Source: Prosthecobacter fusiformis
Lineage (GTDB): Bacteria > Verrucomicrobiota > Verrucomicrobiia > Verrucomicrobiales > Verrucomicrobiaceae
Direction: 5' to 3'
Assembly: GCF_004364345.1 (NCBI RefSeq)
Contig: NZ_SOCA01000001.1
Location: 930,001 to 994,000 of the forward strand
DNA length: 64,000 nucleotides
Below, in pieces: positions 28,569-40,597 of the stretch. Positions within the stretch are counted from its first letter, which is position 1; each line of letters begins with the position of its first letter. The position numbers and the translations under genes are program-made. Under the pieces are notes generated by a model. That model was not told the DNA's origin, made no database searches, and saw only the letters and a list, made by a program, of their open reading frames with translations.

Positions 28569-29591
28569 TTAGGATGCAGGGTGCACGGTCACACACTTCA
28601 CACCTGCATCCGCTTCTTCCACCTCAAAACGTACAGGCAGAAATTTTTCGATCAGGGCCATGTTGGTACGCGAGTGATTGCTGATAGACAGAGTCGCAAA
28701 CTTCCCCCCCCCAGCAAGGGCCATTGGCAGTAATAACTGATCCGCCAAATGCACCCCCACCGGAGCGGATGATGCCAAGTAACTGCGCAGCCCCTTGGCT
28801 GCCCCCGTAGCCACCGACTCAGAGGATTTCCCCACTTGAGCAATGCCCGTGCTGATTTCGCAAACGTTGGCGAAGCGAACTCCCAATAGCAGCGCATTGC
28901 CAGGACCCGTACTGTCATTGGCATATCGAAGCTCCATCCGGTCCTGTGGCCATTCAAGCAGCGCAGAAGCCGTAGCGATTTCACGCTCGGCAATCTCGCG
29001 GTGAAGATGGGCATGGATCACCCGACCAAAATTTTCCAAGAGTTCTCCACGCTCCAGCAGCTTCAGCTTCTGCAATTTCTTAATGGGCGAAACCACCGCC
29101 GTCAACACACCACCCCCCGCCTGCATGAAGCCATGTTTTTCCAAAGCCACACTGACCTTCACCCCCAGCCCGTGAAGCTGCGGCAGAAAACATTGCGCGA
29201 TGAATTCAAATGGCGGCGCCATGGGATTATGCGTACCACCTTCGATACGCAGCGTGCTGGGACCATCGGTCATCAGAAGCGCTGGCAGCAATGTCTGGAA
29301 TACCAGAGTCGTACTTCCCCCGCTACCGATGCTGAATGCATAGTCCCCTGCCCTGACCCGGGCTGGAGCAAAGACCAGTTCAACAGAACCTAACTCGGCC
29401 CCGTCCACCGCCGCATCACAGACCTCCGCCGCCGCCTTCACACAGGTCAGGTGCTGGCGCATCAGCCCTGGCTTCGGCCTCTTGCCGCGGATGTTCGTCA
29501 TGCGAAACGGCTGCCCCGTCACCATCGACAGCGACAGCGCCGAACGCAGCAACTGACCACCGCCGGATTCACCGGAAATTTGGATCATCAT
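28569..29591 (-). CDS. rtcA: RNA 3'-terminal phosphate cyclase
   Basis: A 340-residue RtcA, which converts RNA 3'-phosphates to 2',3'-cyclic phosphates through an RNA-adenylate. Landmarks are the N-terminal GESGGGQLLRSALSLSMVTG, RGKRPKPGLMRQHLTCVKA, FSIGSGGSTTLVFQTLLPAL, GTHNPMAPPFEFIAQCFLP, and the catalytic-histidine block VGVHLADQLLLPMALAGGG near residue 283. Length and order are standard. It is the last gene of the minus-strand rsr-Y RNA-rtcB-rtcA unit, 98 bases after rtcB. The cyclic end it makes is a substrate for RtcB, which fits the pairing. Confidence 0.96.
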   Translation of the reverse strand: MMIQISGESGGGQLLRSALSLSMVTGQPFRMTNIRGKRPKPGLMRQHLTCVKAAAEVCDAAVDGAELGSVELVFAPARVRAGDYAFSIGSGGSTTLVFQTLLPALLMTDGPSTLRIEGGTHNPMAPPFEFIAQCFLPQLHGLGVKVSVALEKHGFMQAGGGVLTAVVSPIKKLQKLKLLERGELLENFGRVIHAHLHREIAEREIATASALLEWPQDRMELRYANDSTGPGNALLLGVRFANVCEISTGIAQVGKSSESVATGAAKGLRSYLASSAPVGVHLADQLLLPMALAGGGKFATLSISNHSRTNMALIEKFLPVRFEVEEADAGVKCVTVHPAS

Positions 29592-29689: not shown

Positions 29690-31177
29690 TCAATCATCCG
29701 CCTCCGCCGCATCCTTGATCACAAAGCGCGCCTTCAGCTTGCACACCTGCTGGGCAAGACCGGCGGCCTCCACGCTACGGAGGACTTCTTTAAAGTCCTT
29801 GTAAGCGTTCGGTGCTTCATCAATCGGATACTGGCGTGAGTTGAAAAGGATGTCGTTAGACTCGAAATCCGCGTCCACCGTTTTCTGATCAAGCACTCGG
29901 GTCGCATGTTTGCGCCCCATGCAGCGACCAGCACCGTGATTCACGCTGTAGCAGCTTTTCACGGCCTCGGGTTTCGCCACCATCACCACCGATCCGTCGC
30001 GTGGATTTCCAGGCAGCAAAATCGGGTGACCAGTGGCGGCGAAGGGCGTGTCCTTGAGGGCATGATGTCCCCCAGGGAAGGCACGCGTCGCCCCCTTTCG
30101 ATGCACCCAGGAGAGCTGGTTATCCACCACCTCCTGACGCGCAATGTTATGGCTGATGAAGTACACCAGTTGCCCAGTCGTCCCTGGCAGCACTTCCTGG
30201 AAAGCCTCCAGCACCAGCGCATTGATGAGCATGTGGTTCACTGTGGCGAAGTTCGCCCCCAGCGCCATATCATCCAGATACGCATCGGCCTCTGGCGTTC
30301 CCAGCGGTGCATAAACAAGCTGCTTGTCACCGGCCGGGAAATCCATCCCCCAGGTGCGGAAGAAACCTTCCAGCGCCTTAAACTGACGCTGCGCCAGGAT
30401 GTTCCCAAACCCGCGCGATCCACAGTGGCTCAGGAAGGCCACGCGATCATCCTGCAGGCCAAAGACTTCCGCCGTGGCACGCATCGTTGGGTCCTGGTCA
30501 AGCTGCACCACCTCGCACTCACCGAAGTGGTTTCCACCCCCGTAAGAACCGAGCTGCATCATCTTGTTTTCGAAGTTCGGGAAGGCATTGAAGGCGCGCA
30601 TCTTGTCCAGGCGCTCATGCAGGGTAGAAACGTTTCCGTCATGCCCATAGTGCTGGCTGTCTTCGCAACGCAGAGCCCATTCAGGCGGGATCCCCAGCGC
30701 CTCACACACCGCCTTGCTAGCCCCTTCCGTGCAAGCTTGCACCCCCAGGTCCGCTGACACACGACGGGACTTTTTAGCCTCGCGCTGCCCACGACCAGGC
30801 CCGGTTGGAGTACGCGCCACGATGGCCTCAATGAGACGGCGGCGCACCGTGCGGTCCACGATCTCATCCGCCGGGATGTTCATCTGTAACAGCGACATGG
30901 AGCACTTGATGTCCACCCCCACAGGTCCTGGATAAATATGCGTTGGCGATGCCATCACACACCCCACCGGAGCGCCGTAACCCGCATGGGCATCCGGATT
31001 CAGCACCAGATCAGTCACCCCTGGTGCCGAACGCGAATTCAACGCCTGGTCAATGCAGGTCTGGTCAAAGCCATTTCGAATAGCTTCGGTACCGATCACC
31101 GTGATCGGCTTGCCTTTGTTATCACGGGCAGGGAGAAAGGCTTCAGCCTCGTTGATGATGTGGAATGGGGAGGTCAT
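29690..31177 (-). CDS. rtcB: RtcB RNA-splicing/repair ligase
   Basis: A 495-residue RtcB; the start chosen is MTSPFHIINEAEAF (31177). RtcB joins 2',3'-cyclic phosphate or 3'-phosphate ends to 5'-OH ends with GTP and Mn. Visible active-site blocks are NPDAHAGYGAPVG, VGVDIKCSMSL (metal-binding Cys), GGGNHFGECE, SHCGSRGFG, and NHGAGRCMGR, with the histidine that becomes guanylylated. The DIKCSM wording differs from the commoner DIGCGM. Between the last Y RNA and this start there are only 22 bases, and the sequence before the ATG is pyrimidine-rich (CACCTTTTTTCTC), with no Shine-Dalgarno site. Confidence 0.96.
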   Translation of the reverse strand: MTSPFHIINEAEAFLPARDNKGKPITVIGTEAIRNGFDQTCIDQALNSRSAPGVTDLVLNPDAHAGYGAPVGCVMASPTHIYPGPVGVDIKCSMSLLQMNIPADEIVDRTVRRRLIEAIVARTPTGPGRGQREAKKSRRVSADLGVQACTEGASKAVCEALGIPPEWALRCEDSQHYGHDGNVSTLHERLDKMRAFNAFPNFENKMMQLGSYGGGNHFGECEVVQLDQDPTMRATAEVFGLQDDRVAFLSHCGSRGFGNILAQRQFKALEGFFRTWGMDFPAGDKQLVYAPLGTPEADAYLDDMALGANFATVNHMLINALVLEAFQEVLPGTTGQLVYFISHNIARQEVVDNQLSWVHRKGATRAFPGGHHALKDTPFAATGHPILLPGNPRDGSVVMVAKPEAVKSCYSVNHGAGRCMGRKHATRVLDQKTVDADFESNDILFNSRQYPIDEAPNAYKDFKEVLRSVEAAGLAQQVCKLKARFVIKDAAEADD

Positions 31178-31199
31178 GAGAGTTTGAGAAAAAAGGTGG

Positions 31200-31333
31200 G
31201 GCGACAAGGGTTTGATGAAACGTTGGCTCTGCTCTACCGGACTGAGCTACGGTCCCGTCGAAGGTGGGACCGGTGGGATTCGAACCCACGACAGGAGGAT
31301 TTTTGAATCATGTAGTTCCATCGGGCATTCGCC
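31200..31333 (-). ncRNA. Y RNA 1 with permuted tRNA-like module
   Basis: On the minus strand this 134-nt unit runs from GGCGAATGCCCGATGGAAC (followed by TACA) to CCCTTGTCGCC. The ends pair (GGCGA/TCGCC, extendable to GGGGCGA/TCGCCCC), and the CCGATGG and CTTG elements resemble the Ro-binding helix of Y RNAs. Inside is a tRNA in permuted order: T-arm GTGGG-TTCGAAT-CCCAC, acceptor strand CGGTCCC, closing loop ACCTTCGAC, acceptor strand GGGACCG, TA, then D-arm GCTC-AGTCCGGTA-GAGC. No anticodon arm exists; the Y stem takes that place. This is the YrlA-type architecture. It lies 22 bases before rtcB. Confidence 0.88.
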
Positions 31334-31364
31334 CCGTTTGATTGAGATTGGATGAAAGTGAAAT

Positions 31365-31489
31365 GGCGACAAGGGTTTTGAGAAACAGATGTGTCTACTG
31401 CTCTGCCACTGAGCCACCGACACTGTGAGTATCGGGCAGGAATCGAACCTGCGACCAATAGCTGACTGTAGTTCCTCAGGGCATTCGCC
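31365..31489 (-). ncRNA. Y RNA 2 with permuted tRNA-like module
   Basis: A 125-nt minus-strand unit with the same ends (GGCGAATGCCCTGAGGAAC...CCCTTGTCGCC). The tRNA mimic reads T-arm GCAGG-TTCGATT-CCTGC, acceptor CCGATAC, loop TCACA, acceptor GTGTCGG (seven pairs including one G-U), TG, D-arm GCTC-AGTGGCA-GAGC. The stems differ in sequence from unit 1 but keep the same pairing, so the structure is conserved by covariation. Spacer to unit 1 is 31 bases. Confidence 0.87.
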
Positions 31490-31517
31490 AGATTAAGAGG
31501 GTTATTGGGAAAGAAGT

Positions 31518-31603
31518 GGCGACAAGGGTGGAGAGACTTTCCGCATTGCTGCGGGCGGGTTTTAAATGCCGCTATTCCAGTGTAGTCCGCTCCGGCATTC
31601 GCC
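31518..31603 (-). ncRNA. Y RNA 3, short form without tRNA-like module
   Basis: An 86-nt minus-strand unit, GGCGAATGCCGGAGCGGAC...CCCTTGTCGCC. The tRNA mimic is absent. Instead there is a compact hairpin CCGCA-GCAA-TGCGG with a GNRA-type loop, preceded by an A/T-rich bulge (ATTTAAAA). The shared ends and the GACTACA box are intact, so it should still bind Rsr. Spacers are 28 bases to unit 2 and 32 to unit 4. Confidence 0.82.
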
Positions 31604-31635
31604 AGGATTTAATTGATGGGGTTGGGGGAAGGATT

Positions 31636-31761
31636 GGCGACAAGGGAGTCGAGAAACAAGTCTAATGCTCTACCGGGCTGAGCTACTGGCCCCCGTGAAA
31701 AAGCCAGGCAGGATTTGAACCTGCGTCCTATAGGTTAATGTAGTTCCTCAGGGCATTCGCC
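31636..31761 (-). ncRNA. Y RNA 4 with permuted tRNA-like module
   Basis: A 126-nt minus-strand unit, GGCGAATGCCCTGAGGAAC...CCCTTGTCGCC. tRNA mimic: T-arm GCAGG-TTCAAAT-CCTGC, acceptor CTGGCTT, loop TTTCACGG, acceptor GGGCCAG, TA, D-arm GCTC-AGCCCGGTA-GAGC. The T-loop keeps the TTCRA core and the D-loop keeps GG, the residues that lock the tRNA elbow. The first 23 bases are identical to unit 2. Confidence 0.87.
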
Positions 31762-31786
31762 AAAATTTGTTAGAAAGGATTTGAAG

Positions 31787-31861
31787 TGGAGGCGGGTGAC
31801 AAGAGTTGAGCGACGTTTTTTCGCAAAAAATGTAGTCATCTCAGGCATTCACCAGCCTCCA
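31787..31861 (-). ncRNA. Y RNA 5, minimal form adjoining rsr
   Basis: The core (31795-31853, 59 nt on the minus strand) reads GGTGAATGCCTGAGATGAC...CTCTTGTCACC. The terminal pair GGTGA/TCACC replaces GGCGA/TCGCC on both sides, a compensatory change. An outer perfect stem GGAGGC/GCCTCC (788-793 and 855-860, plus T/A at 787/861) extends it. The interior is only TTTTTT-GCG-AAAAAA. It starts 6 bases after the rsr stop codon, so it is surely made as part of the rsr transcript. Confidence 0.83.
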
Positions 31862-31867
31862 AGGTTT

Positions 31868-33436
31868 TCAAAGGGCTGTGTTTTCGATCTCACCGACCCA
31901 GTGGTCCGGGCCAAGCTGGCCGCTGGCAAAGGAGGCGATGACTTCAAACACCTGATCAGAGAAACCTCCGATATTCAGGATGTCTTCGCGTTCCTGCGCC
32001 TGCGTCGTTGCATAGGGCTGGATGTCCAGGCACACCAGACGGGCATTGGGATTGCGTTGCTTGAACACATTCCACTCGCTCATCGTGCGTGTAGGCGATC
32101 CACCAAACCGGCCATGGATTGAGGTATCCATCCAGGACTCGTTATCGGAGACATAGATGACCAGATCGGCCTTGGCCTTGCGGGCATTGAGGTCAATGAG
32201 CACGGCGCTGCAATTGGTCCCGCCAGCGGGCAGCGAGGCCAGCTTTTGGGCATTCGTCATCACCGAATCACGAGGATTCAAAGACACCGGCACCACGTTG
32301 TTTTCAAAGGGAAGCACCTCGGCATCACGGTTCTGGCGAAGGAAGGCGGCAGCCACCAGGGCGGCCACATCAATGCAGCGGATTTTGCTCGTGGCACCTT
32401 TGCGCACGCCGGTCACCGCAGAGTGCATGGAACCGGAAACGTCAGGTGCCACAACCACTTTTCCGCTCACGACAGGCACATTGGAAACTGCGATTTCCAT
32501 GGCGTCCTGCAGCGCTTCCTTCACTTCATGCGGCACTTCGGCACCGACATTGAAATAGGCAGCCATGAGCTGGTAAGGGAAGACACGGGCACGACGCACC
32601 TGGTCCTCGCTGCGCAGACGGCTGGCGATGAGACGGGTCACGTCCGAATGAGTGAACACACCATGACGGGCAAAGGTATTCAGGTTCATCCGGGTGGTCT
32701 GCCATGTGGCACGGCGGGCGATGGCCAGCCATTGCTCCGTGGTCAGCGGCAGCGCAGTGAGCATCTGAAAGGGCACATCCGGAGGCTCCCCCTGGGGGTC
32801 CAGCTTCCAGGCTTCAAACTCGCGCACCAGTGGTGGCAGAGCCTCCGCCTGGTGAGCACGGCCGATAAGGTAACCATACAGCGCCTCACGGGAAGGCGAT
32901 CCAGGATGCGGGTGCACCATCTTGATGATGTCCGCCATGGAGGGAGACTGCCCCACATCCGCACGGAACACGGCTTCATCAGAACGGTTCTCAAACCACT
33001 TGCGCACCAGACGCTTCGGCAGCGATCCCAGGGACTTCCGCCCGGTCACACCGGAGCGCAGGATCTGGACAAAGTTGCGCAGCATCTTCGCATCGTTGAT
33101 CACGCGGCTAAAGATAAGCTCCAGGCGCTCCGCATCTCGGGCGGCCAGCACGGCGCATAGCAGCGCTGGCACATCCTTCATGAAGCCCTTTTCACGGCAG
33201 TGAATGGCGGTCCGGGCGATGAAGTCCGTCGGCACCTTTTCGCACAGGGCCAGGATCTTCTGAAGCTGGTCCTCAGCGGTGGCATAGTAAGTGTGGTTCA
33301 GGCATCCCGTGGCCGCATACTGGGCCAGAGCATGACGCGGGGTCATCTGGTAAGCCAGACCGCCGGCTTCGTTGCGGGTATCCGCCTTGGGGGCGAGGGC
33401 TCCGGCGATGGATTGGAAGAGTGTTTTGCTGGCCAT
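31868..33436 (-). CDS. rsr: Ro60/Rsr-family TROVE domain protein
   Basis: A 522-residue orthologue of the Ro autoantigen. Residues 1-300 or so are the HEAT-like TROVE ring (TPRHALAQYAATGCLNHTYYATAEDQLQKIL, ARTAIHCREKGFMKDVPALLCAVLA, LRNFVQILRSGVTGRKSLGSLPK), which binds Y RNA on its outer face and misfolded RNA ends in its hole. From about 325 a von Willebrand A domain carries the metal motif VVAPDVSGSMHS and YVSDNESWMDT. It is the first gene after a sigma-54 promoter, divergent from rtcR and followed directly by five Y-RNA-like units and rtcBA. This matches the rsr-yrl-rtcBA operons known from Salmonella. Confidence 0.96.
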   Translation of the reverse strand: MASKTLFQSIAGALAPKADTRNEAGGLAYQMTPRHALAQYAATGCLNHTYYATAEDQLQKILALCEKVPTDFIARTAIHCREKGFMKDVPALLCAVLAARDAERLELIFSRVINDAKMLRNFVQILRSGVTGRKSLGSLPKRLVRKWFENRSDEAVFRADVGQSPSMADIIKMVHPHPGSPSREALYGYLIGRAHQAEALPPLVREFEAWKLDPQGEPPDVPFQMLTALPLTTEQWLAIARRATWQTTRMNLNTFARHGVFTHSDVTRLIASRLRSEDQVRRARVFPYQLMAAYFNVGAEVPHEVKEALQDAMEIAVSNVPVVSGKVVVAPDVSGSMHSAVTGVRKGATSKIRCIDVAALVAAAFLRQNRDAEVLPFENNVVPVSLNPRDSVMTNAQKLASLPAGGTNCSAVLIDLNARKAKADLVIYVSDNESWMDTSIHGRFGGSPTRTMSEWNVFKQRNPNARLVCLDIQPYATTQAQEREDILNIGGFSDQVFEVIASFASGQLGPDHWVGEIENTAL

Positions 33437-33474
33437 GATGTTTTTTCAGGTTGTTGCGTTGTGCCAATCAGTAA

Positions 33475-33491
33475 TGCCAGCTTCGTGCCAA
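33475..33491 (-). promoter_or_regulatory. sigma-54 promoter of the rsr-Y RNA-rtcBA unit
   Basis: On the minus strand the sequence TTGGCACGAAGCTGGCA matches the sigma-54 consensus TTGGCACRNNNNTTGCW at all but one specified base. The invariant GG (-24) and GC (-12) are exactly 12 apart. The predicted start of transcription is near 33464, 28 bases before the rsr ATG. RtcR, encoded divergently next to it, is a sigma-54 activator, which makes the assignment strong. Confidence 0.82.
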
Positions 33492-33501
33492 CTCTTGGCA
33501 C
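33485..33501. repeat. inverted repeat GTGCCAA-CTC-TTGGCAC overlapping the sigma-54 promoter
   Basis: Perfect 7-bp arms with a 3-base spacer. The left arm is the -24 element read on the other strand. A third GTGCCAA copy lies at 33461-33467. The repeat might be a regulator site, or the copies may be chance echoes of the -24 element. Confidence 0.5.
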
Positions 33502-33684
33502 ACCAGGGACGAATGGCGCTGGAAGCCTTATAGAATAAGGGAAAGAAAATTTACAGCAGCCTCGCCATCCAATTCCCAACCCATTGTTTTATCCATTTTT
33601 TATTATCCCAATTAATACGCATTTATCTTTTTGGATATTATTGTATAAAGAGATGAGCGACCGCAGGCGTCCGCGCTTCTCTTT

Positions 33685-35280
33685 ATGAAATCCACCGTCG
33701 TTTTTGGCTTCCTGGGCACCTCTCTGGACCGCGCACAAGGCGCTGACCGCTGGTCGCGCTGGCGGCCCACGGTCTCCATGTGTCAGCAGGAGGATCTGCT
33801 CATCTCCCGGCTGGAGCTGCTGGTGGAGCCTAAGTTCGCGGCTCTGGCTCAGCAGGTAGCGGCGGACATCCGGCAGGTATCGCCGGAAACCACGGTCGTG
33901 ATGAATGAACTCTGCTTTGCAGACCCATGGGATTTCCAGCTCGTGTATGAAGGGCTTTACGACTTCATAACCAATTATGCGTTCAAGACGGAAAAGGAGG
34001 ATTATCTCATCCACCTGACCACGGGTACGCATGTGGCGCAGATCTGCTGGTTCCTGTTAAACGAGGCCAATTTCATCCCCGCACGCCTGCTCCAAACCTC
34101 CCCTTCCCGCGTCAACGGACGTGATACCAACTCGTCTGGCCGTTATGAGATCATTGACTTGGACCTTTCCAAATATGACCGCCTGGCCACACGCTTCGCC
34201 CAGGAGCAGGAGAAGACTCTCGATTTCCTCAAAAGCGGCATCGCCACGAAGAGCAAGGCCTTTAACATGCTCATCGGCCAGATCGAACTGGTGGCGGTGA
34301 ATTCCAAAGCACCCATGCTCATCATGGGCCCCACTGGCGCAGGCAAGTCCCTACTGACCTCGCGCATCTATGACCTGCGCTGCAGCCGCGCTGGCCTAAC
34401 AGGAAGGTTTGTCGAAGTGAACTGCGCCACCCTGCGCGGCGACCAGGCCATGAGCGCCCTTTTTGGCCATCGGCGCGGTGCTTTCACCGGCGCGCAAGCT
34501 GACCGCCCAGGCTTGCTCAAAGAGGCGGACAAAGGCCTCATCTTCCTGGATGAAATCGGCGAACTCGGCCTGGATGAACAAGCCATGCTGCTACGCGCTC
34601 TCGAGGACAAAACCTTCCTGCCTCTAGGCTCGGACAAAGCAGTCTCCAGTGACTTCCAACTCATCGCCGGCACCAACCGCGACCTCCGTGCGGAAGTGGC
34701 CGCAGGCAAATTTCGTGATGATCTGTTGGCGCGTATCAATCTGTGGACCTTCACCTTACCCAGCCTGGCAGAGCGGCGCGAAGATCTGAGCGCGAACCTG
34801 GACTTCGAACTGGAACGTTATGCCAAATCTCACCGCCGCCAAGTGCGCTTCAACAAAGAAGCCCGTGAAGCCTTCCTGAAATTCGCCCGCAGTCCCGAAG
34901 CCACCTGGAGCGCGAATTTTCGCGATCTCAATGCCGCCGTGACCCGCATGGCCACACTAGCCCCCAAAGGCCGCATCACCGTTGAATGCGTGGATCAAGA
35001 AAAAGCCCGCCTGATGCAGGGCTGGGGCGACGGCACAGGAAAGAGAAAGCAGTTGGAAACCTCTTTCTGCGGCCTGGACATCTCCAAGCTTGATCCCTTT
35101 GACCAGGTGCAACTGGAGTATGTGCTGGGCGTCTGTCGTGAAAGCAAAACCATGTCCGACGCCGGACGGAAACTCTTCTCCATCTCCCGCCTCAGCAAGA
35201 CCAAATCCAACGATGCCGACCGCCTGAAAAAGTACCTGGCCCGGTTCGAACTCACCTGGGATAAAATATCTGGGGCGTGA
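33685..35280 (+). CDS. rtcR: RtcR sigma-54-dependent activator of the RNA-repair operon
   Basis: A 531-residue bacterial enhancer-binding protein. Residues 1-185 are the RtcR-type sensor, distantly like CARF domains (VVFGFLGTSLDRAQGADRWSRWRP, HLTTGTHVAQICWFL), thought to bind an RNA end or cyclic nucleotide ligand. The AAA+ domain follows: Walker A GPTGAGKS at 215-222, sigma-54 contact loop GAFTGA at 265-270, Walker B LIFLDE at 285-290. The C-terminus (about 440-531) is helical with a DNA-binding helix-turn-helix near VCRESKTMSDAGRKLF. It sits 248 bases from rsr in divergent orientation, the standard rtc arrangement. Confidence 0.96.
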   Translation: MKSTVVFGFLGTSLDRAQGADRWSRWRPTVSMCQQEDLLISRLELLVEPKFAALAQQVAADIRQVSPETTVVMNELCFADPWDFQLVYEGLYDFITNYAFKTEKEDYLIHLTTGTHVAQICWFLLNEANFIPARLLQTSPSRVNGRDTNSSGRYEIIDLDLSKYDRLATRFAQEQEKTLDFLKSGIATKSKAFNMLIGQIELVAVNSKAPMLIMGPTGAGKSLLTSRIYDLRCSRAGLTGRFVEVNCATLRGDQAMSALFGHRRGAFTGAQADRPGLLKEADKGLIFLDEIGELGLDEQAMLLRALEDKTFLPLGSDKAVSSDFQLIAGTNRDLRAEVAAGKFRDDLLARINLWTFTLPSLAERREDLSANLDFELERYAKSHRRQVRFNKEAREAFLKFARSPEATWSANFRDLNAAVTRMATLAPKGRITVECVDQEKARLMQGWGDGTGKRKQLETSFCGLDISKLDPFDQVQLEYVLGVCRESKTMSDAGRKLFSISRLSKTKSNDADRLKKYLARFELTWDKISGA

Positions 35281-40523: not shown

Positions 40524-40597
40524 TGGAGCGGGTAGTGGGAATCGAACCCACATGGCCAGCTTGGAAGGCTGGAACTTTACCACTAAGCTATACCCGC
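40524..40597 (-). tRNA. tRNA-Gly (anticodon TCC)
   Basis: A full cloverleaf on the minus strand: acceptor GCGGGTA/TACCCGC, D-arm AGCTTAGTGGTAAAGT, anticodon arm CCAGCCTTCCAAGCTGG with TCC in the loop, T-arm GTGGG-TTCGATT-CCCAC. A genomically encoded CCA follows the discriminator T (40524-40526). An ordinary tRNA in normal order, unlike the permuted mimics at 31200-31761. Confidence 0.97.

Follow-up and report, generated by a model that had tools for sequence, protein, structure and literature searches.

On its minus strand between 29000 and 34000, the window (i.e., the whole 64-kb stretch of DNA analysed) carries rsr, five Y RNA units (U1 to U5), rtcB, and rtcA in that order. The features of the locus are listed in the direction of the minus strand, with Pfam matches in brackets.

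33685..35280, plus strand: rtcR, divergent sigma-54 activator (Pfam RtcR 4.9e-81, Sigma54_activat 3.1e-47)
33476..33490, minus strand: sigma-54-like promoter TGGCAC-N5-TGGC, 40-54 nt before the rsr ATG, one mismatch to the consensus
31868..33436, minus strand: rsr, Ro60-like protein of 522 aa (Pfam vWA_Ro60 6.2e-19)
31860-31788, minus strand: Y RNA U1, outer stem of 73 nt, core 31853-31795 (59 nt); plain stem-loop with long outer stem, without tRNA-like module
31634..31763, minus strand: Y RNA U2, outer extent, core 31761-31636 (126 nt); permuted tRNA-like module, T-arm 31724-31708, D-arm 31683-31667
31517..31604, minus strand: Y RNA U3, outer extent, core 31603-31518 (86 nt); two-hairpin module
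31364..31490, minus strand: Y RNA U4, outer extent, core 31489-31365 (125 nt); permuted tRNA-like module, T-arm 31452-31436, D-arm 31414-31400
31198..31335, minus strand: Y RNA U5, outer extent, core 31333-31200 (134 nt); permuted tRNA-like module, T-arm 31289-31273, D-arm 31247-31231, acceptor strands 31272-31266 and 31256-31250
29690..31177, minus strand: rtcB, RNA ligase (Pfam RtcB 1.3e-99)
28569..29591, minus strand: rtcA, RNA 3'-phosphate cyclase (Pfam RTC 2.6e-75)

The original prediction of five minus-strand units between rsr and rtcB with common ends was borne out by the sequence and by a unit detector, which returned exactly these five in the gap and no others; all five have the ends GGYGAAUGCC ... 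ACUACA ... CUUGUCRCC. The lengths given for them (134, 125, 86, 126, and 59-75 nt) agree with the measured cores (134, 125, 86, 126, and 59 nt) and the 73-nt outer stem of U1. The start of the array, placed 6 bases past the rsr stop codon (31870-31868, minus strand), was corrected to 7 bases, where the extended stem of U1 begins. The ORF list and ARAGORN gave neither a protein-coding region nor an ordinary tRNA in the array, in line with the prediction. Among ORFs of at least 80 aa, the only minus-strand one entering the array is rtcB when read from an earlier TTG start, which would extend it to 31207 and into the final bases of U5, and the plus-strand ORFs at 30938-31306 and 31781-32122, which overlap the array ends, were regarded as chance. 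ARAGORN's sole tRNA in the window lies at 40524-40597, and tmRNA was rejected at 17.2 and 12.1 bits against a cut-off of 47.

The rsr product reached only 21.2 bits against Pfam TROVE (cut-off 23), and TROVE gave no match across the own genome at E 0.001. A profile of 12 Rsr homologues matched Deinococcus Rsr (2nvo) at E 2.9e-34 over profile positions 18-506, and also matched Ro60 chains, in both cases over most of the length. The units thus lie beside an rsr/Ro60 gene and all five have paired ends with conserved bulge sequences, as is typical of Y RNAs, and the locus has the hallmarks of an RtcR-controlled rtcBA repair operon, i.e., rtcB next to rtcA, a divergently encoded RtcR that has a sigma-54 domain, and a sigma-54-like site ahead of the operon.

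Positions 33476-33490 were scored against the sigma-54 consensus. A site with at most one mismatch was present in eight of 11 rsr upstream regions (400 nt each) and absent from the other three, while other sequence held 11 such patterns in 404,954 nt (0.011 per 400 nt). The whole 64 kb contains two (0.63 expected), a number reached by 14 of 100 shuffles; the case for sigma-54 rests on position and on recurrence in relatives. In 31100-33700, the strand of the array yielded no sigma-70-like promoter. The region gave two terminator-like hits, with a mean of 2.6 in shuffles, and the only one of them on that strand corresponds to the T-arm of U2. It is therefore likely that rsr to rtcA are transcribed as a single unit. 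In the pattern scan, the U2 T-arm (31724-31708, minus strand) followed by CTGGCTTTTT resembles an intrinsic terminator.

Module structure of the five units

The Rfam YrlA model (RF02553) matched U5 with 64.0 bits (E 3.3e-14), U2 with 59.7 bits (E 5.8e-13), U4 with 59.1 bits (E 8.6e-13), and U3 with 20.1 bits (E 0.16), and U1 gave no Rfam Y RNA match. The gathering score of 69 was reached by none of the five; hence, U2, U4, and U5 are termed YrlA-like and not curated RF02553 members. The covariance-model check proposed with the original prediction thus came out divided, all five units scoring below the gathering score and their ends being strongly conserved in relatives (see below); since it was low scores together with unconserved ends that were to speak against Y RNAs, the prediction is not refuted. 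When 150 of 255 candidates of the own genome were scored with the YrlA model, the top three were U5, U2, and U4, followed by four weaker matches of at most 33.3 bits, in a search blind to plain stem-loop types and to U3. With E up to 10, the model matched in 13 of 14 control genomes, never above the cut-off. Weak YrlA scores by themselves therefore mean little, as control genomes match too and the fourth match of the own genome is a tRNA pair. This pair is a tandem tRNA-Lys junction (C4:9348-9431, 33.3 bits), and such junctions are a possible source of weak false YrlA matches. Except for the Rfam cut-off, every sequence test identifies the array as genuine and its units as Y RNAs; the predicted assignment to this class is supported, as are the mixture of types and the clustering with rsr and rtcB.

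A module missed in the first description was recognised in three of the five units. In U2, U4, and U5, the arms follow each other as T-arm, closed acceptor stem, and D-arm, i.e., as if a tRNA had been opened at its anticodon and sealed at its acceptor end; U1 and U3 do not have this permuted arrangement. Likeness to tRNAs was scored by comparing each module with the 5' and 3' halves of 102 ARAGORN tRNA entries from the own genome and genome G530 (near-identical entries included), and the null was one shuffle per unit (n = 204; median 17, maximum 24). U2 scored 34 (Thr; next Val 31), U4 35 (Lys; next Val 33), and U5 40 (Met; next Pro 38), and the scores of U1 (14) and U3 (17) lie within the shuffle range, i.e., show no tRNA likeness. 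As the margins between isotypes are small, no isotype can be named for these modules. Their D-arms are of the elongator type only, and a GGCGA stem together with this D-arm is common to U2, U4, and U5.

Single-sequence folding gave -25.5 kcal/mol for U1 (z -4.5), z -2.1 for U3 (7 of 200 shuffles as good), and z -0.86 for U2, which does not stand out from its shuffles (32 of 200 equally good). The minimum free energy fold of U4 (z -2.2) has the T-arm and acceptor hairpins without the D-arm, and that of U5 (z -2.7) pairs the GCUC of the D-arm in another register. U3 is perhaps a T-arm/acceptor minihelix with a decayed T-loop; the T-arm is retained in U3-like units of congeners.

Arrays in relatives and viral records

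Units were detected by a 5' GRAUGY followed by UACA, a paired outer stem, and a 3' CUUG-like box, at a threshold of 10 for rsr-rtcB gaps and of 12 for viral and named loci. Rsr matches were obtained in 21 of 387 genomes sampled across the phylum, in 28 of 68 of the family, and in 40 of 244 sampled from a sister family; genomes are shared between these sets, and distant Rsr types are counted as well. Of 60 loci examined downstream of rsr, 48 have an rsr of the close type as well as rtcB and make up, with the window, the 49 gaps studied in the order; L117, which has no rtcB within reach, and eleven distant-Rsr loci (L126-L136) stand outside the counts. The detector found 204 units on the rsr strand of the 49 gaps (54,111 nt) but none on the other strand, nor any in five Markov shuffles, so that the units are not due to chance.

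The numbers per gap, which are lower bounds since variants are missed and which come from relatives that are not independent, were none in one gap, one in one, two in six, three in eight, four in 19, five in five, six in three, and seven, eight, and nine in two gaps each; at least five units thus occurred in 14 of 49 gaps and two to four in 33, and each of the 15 gaps of the own family held three to five. Among the named loci (best 80 of 498; by record title Verrucomicrobia, Acidobacteria, Planctomycetes, Myxococcales, Bacteroidota, and others), which partly repeat the other genomes examined, four had no unit, 15 had two, 18 three, 27 four, nine five, two six, four seven, and one eight. Here, at least five units were found at 16 of the 80, some with units on both sides of rsr, and 285 units lay on the rsr strand versus 1 on the opposite strand. 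An array of five can hence no longer be called unusual, as had been claimed. The detector, which requires ..TACA and four stem pairs, undercounts, and for this reason missed units in L118, L070, and L055: L118 scored zero yet two CTCCA units are visible, L070 has a further Leu-like unit, and L055 a U1-like one. False calls at low scores were also recognised (viral L242:5485 and L303:5073, both inside the rsr match), and unit 2 of L068 looks mispaired.

A second, distant Rsr type (L038-L052; 29-31% identity) is present in genomes of the own family, with G401, G420, and G424 carrying both types, and no close rtcB lies downstream in eleven distant-Rsr loci examined. Many sister-family arrays have genes between the Y RNAs and rtcB. 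Two ORFs tested (L102:2906-3667 and L067:1049-1816) join a CPCC cysteine-rich domain to DUF6714, and ORFs of L105, L107, and L108 resemble them by their first residues; ORFs of L071, L122, and L103 had no Pfam family match. Between array and rtcB of L054, a 237-aa ORF (L054:2749-3459) matched HEPN at E 0.0032, under the curated cut-off, and possibly encodes an RNA-cutting protein beside the repair genes.

For the pairing test, units were picked by sequence alone, so that pairing was not built in, and 1000 partner shuffles served as null. Identical sequences were removed before the pairing, D-arm, acceptor-loop, and CCA analyses (for the D-arm search, this took the modules from 616 to 549). Of 146 distinct units of the order, 137 form all three outer base pairs (shuffle maximum 58); the corresponding counts are 218 of 239 in the named set (maximum 114), which overlaps with that of the order, and 58 of 71 in the viral set (maximum 17). 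The stem sequence varies (GGC/GCC, CGC/GCG, GCC/GGC, GAC/GTC, CGT/ACG, GCT/AGC, and others) and the pairing is kept. In the alignment of U5 (14 of 15 family regions), eight of 31 consensus pairs, with the D-arm in the consensus, changed on both sides. For U2 (13 of 15 regions), 14 of 34 pairs did so, including four of five pairs of the stem standing for the anticodon stem.

Turnover within the array was followed in two close genomes. Compared with G196, whose Rsr is 97% identical to that of the window, U1 and U5 are 95% identical, U2 83%, U3 at most 70%, and U4 at most 72%. In G187 (Rsr 85%), counterparts of U5 (92%) and U4 (86%) were found, and a U1-like unit missed by the detector is visible. 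From these comparisons, the ends of the array look stable and the middle slots look quickly changing.

The viral collection contained 174 Rsr relatives, of which the best 80 were examined for units. At threshold 12, candidate units on the rsr strand were present in 46 of these 80 loci; 18 loci had three or more and seven had five or more, the latter including two loci with identical hits (L258, L259) and one with a false hit inside rsr (L242). The candidate units numbered 10 in L248, eight in L299, and seven each in L251 and L260. L299 and L251 are credible phages because of a terminase match (L299) and a phage-type DNA polymerase (L251). No terminase match was found in the records of L248 and L251, L260 gave weak matches only, and one ORF of L248 had no match; the viral status of L248 and L260 rests on the label of the collection. 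In a viral Y-like unit (L299:7077-7199), the D-arm precedes the T-arm, as in ordinary tRNAs, and a GAAA loop takes the place of the anticodon.

Module classes and encoded CCA

In the longest sister-family arrays (L071, L105, L108, L109), module classes recur in one order and stem types are mostly shared. From rsr onward, stem-loops with long outer stem are followed by initiator-like, short elongator-like, two-hairpin/minihelix, and elongator-like units, and by a Leu-like unit near rtcB. L067, L068, and L100 have a different class order, in which the Leu-like unit is not the last before rtcB.

D-arm signatures were searched in 549 distinct modules. The Leu-type pattern was present in 11 (ten from the order, one from a Phycisphaerales record) and in none of 20 shuffle rounds, and by D-arm score with the acceptor excluded Leu was sole best in all 11. 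Four of them (L068, L105, L119, and L380, with scores of 39, 38, 35, and 34) have a canonical T-loop, a total well above the shuffle maximum of 24, and a hairpin at the place of the long variable arm; the Leu totals of the other seven are at most 26, i.e., near the shuffle maximum, and another isotype scored higher in L067 and L100. The initiator-Met pattern occurred in 16 modules (shuffled mean 0.95, maximum 3). Among the 11 from the order, initiator Met was sole best by D-arm score in six, tied in four, and not best in one; none of the five from named genomes held up by score. In total score against both tRNA halves, initiator Met was best for five units (30-37). Ser, Tyr, and Cys D-arm types had 0 matches each among the 549, and Pro one (shuffled mean 0.35); Gln was top in three of three matches but by 1 point only, and Glu sole best in two of five. 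Likeness to particular tRNAs is thus found in relatives only and is absent from the window's own modules.

Y RNAs near Ro60 were reportedly found by Chen et al. in 2014 across over 250 species of bacteria and phages, each with at least one containing a tRNA-like domain. Within the literature searched, no description of initiator-like or Leu-like Y RNAs was found, and multi-class arrays with likenesses of particular tRNAs may, within that scope, be new.

A CCA encoded in the acceptor loop was searched in the 155 of 549 modules that had a recognised T-arm and D-arm and an acceptor of seven positions. Directly past the acceptor strand, where the 3' end of a tRNA would be, N-CCA was present in 16 of 155 modules (mean of shuffles 3.3) or, counting distinct loops, in 11 of 132 (mean 2.5), and 0 of 5000 shuffles reached either number. 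Six of the 16 have one common loop and hence are not independent; others stem from various genera and from viral records. At this position, U5 of the window has ACCU, and tetraloops, GCAA and GAAA among them, make up 35 of 230 acceptor loops. As the YrlA model scores the tandem tRNA-Lys junction described above, an origin of permuted modules from tandem tRNA junctions is suggested.

Function and origin of the array

In the Salmonella rsr-yrlBA-rtcBA operon, which according to passages of PMC7790460 is induced by tRNA fragments, the gene order, the paired Rsr-type ends, the permuted module (here in U2, U4, and U5), and the divergent RtcR with sigma-54 domain are as in the window. In contrast to Salmonella YrlA/YrlB, the window has five units rather than two, all under the Rfam gathering score, with other modules in U1 and U3, and initiator- or Leu-type D-arms occur in modules of its relatives. 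Passages of a review (PMC8394870) describe YrlA as modified by DusA and TruB, with dihydrouridine and pseudouridine in the module, and its basal stem as tethering Rsr. With the Rsr/Y RNA/PNPase particle (RYPER) of Deinococcus radiodurans, in which a Y RNA tethers the Rsr ring to an effector (PMC4726728), the locus has in common an Rsr homologous over most of its length (2nvo), but the window has several upper modules side by side. Like tmRNA and other tRNA mimics, the modules resemble a T-arm and acceptor, with U5 far under the tmRNA cut-off; unlike tmRNA, they are permuted and closed by an Rsr-type stem at the place of the anticodon arm, and no tag frame is known. That a tRNA-like domain might inhibit a nuclease, and that phage Y RNAs are possible, is mentioned in passages among PMC7790460, PMC8394870, PMC4726728, PMC12282133, and PMC9569102.

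Given the observed array with its conserved, covarying ends, the tRNA likeness of three units, the gene context, and the sigma-54-like site, the five units are probably Rsr-binding Y RNAs from one RtcR/sigma-54-driven transcript, which is processed and whose modules act as adapters for or decoys of tRNA enzymes. Broken tRNAs would cause RtcR and sigma-54 to switch on rsr, the five Y RNAs, rtcB, and rtcA as one transcript, which would be cut into separate RNAs of about 60-140 nt. Rsr would hold each RNA by the common terminal stem and the GAAUGC/ACUACA/CUUGUC bulges, and each unit would display its own upper module (three permuted tRNA bodies, one two-hairpin module, one plain loop). Through the modules, one and the same ring could attract or divert various enzymes that bind or cut tRNAs, and RtcB and RtcA would meanwhile mend the real tRNAs. 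Rsr binding through the stem, tRNA-type modification, and induction by tRNA fragments are presumed here from the literature on relatives; the single transcript, its processing, and the adapter or decoy role we infer.

It is unlikely that the units are ordinary Y RNAs from tandem duplication, i.e., redundant copies that raise the dose only and differ by drift. The stem and elongator D-arm common to U2, U4, and U5 and the fast change of the middle slots relative to G196 would agree with such copies, but the recurrence of class order and mostly of stem types in L071, L105, L108, and L109 argues against them, and Leu- and initiator-type D-arms and covariation are not expected from drift. An improbable reading has the units acting in cis, as signals for mRNA stability, rtcB translation, or cutting of the transcript, instead of as separate RNAs; their position within one gene cluster and the terminator-like hairpin in U2 would fit, whereas the common Y RNA ends, the tRNA-like modules, and the occurrence of units upstream of rsr in other genomes and viral contigs speak against it, as do the known relatives, which in passages of PMC8394870 are separate RNAs bound to Rsr. 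More improbable still is a cut of the modules at the acceptor loop by RNase P and RNase Z, giving CCA-ended and perhaps chargeable tRNA halves joined at the Rsr stem. The encoded N-CCA, in excess over all shuffles, is what such cutting would predict; on the other side, 139 of 155 modules are without it, the one loop common to six of the 16, the tetraloops, and the ACCU of U5 do not fit, and a passage of PMC7790460 has YrlA fragments undetected in Salmonella with mitomycin C.

Going beyond the favoured reading of processed, Rsr-bound adapters or decoys, the arrays could form an exchangeable cassette panel of tRNA identities, born at tandem tRNA junctions and diversified by bacteria and phages against tRNA enzymes, a proposal that we regard as doubtful and that was rated down because seven of 11 Leu-like units were assigned from the D-arm alone. 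The panel would span a general elongator, initiator tRNA-Met, type II tRNA-Leu with long variable arm, perhaps Gln/Glu, and an acceptor/T-arm minihelix. Each cassette would have been born when the junction of tandem tRNA genes was caught between two halves of an Rsr stem, and, if this were true, the permuted order and the left-over N-CCA would both follow from that capture.

The multi-class arrays make the role of the upper modules of bacterial Y RNAs a directly testable question, and the junction of tandem tRNA genes is suggested as a simple route to a permuted tRNA-like RNA. The arrays also link Ro60-type proteins to tRNA repair and, via the viral records, to phage biology.
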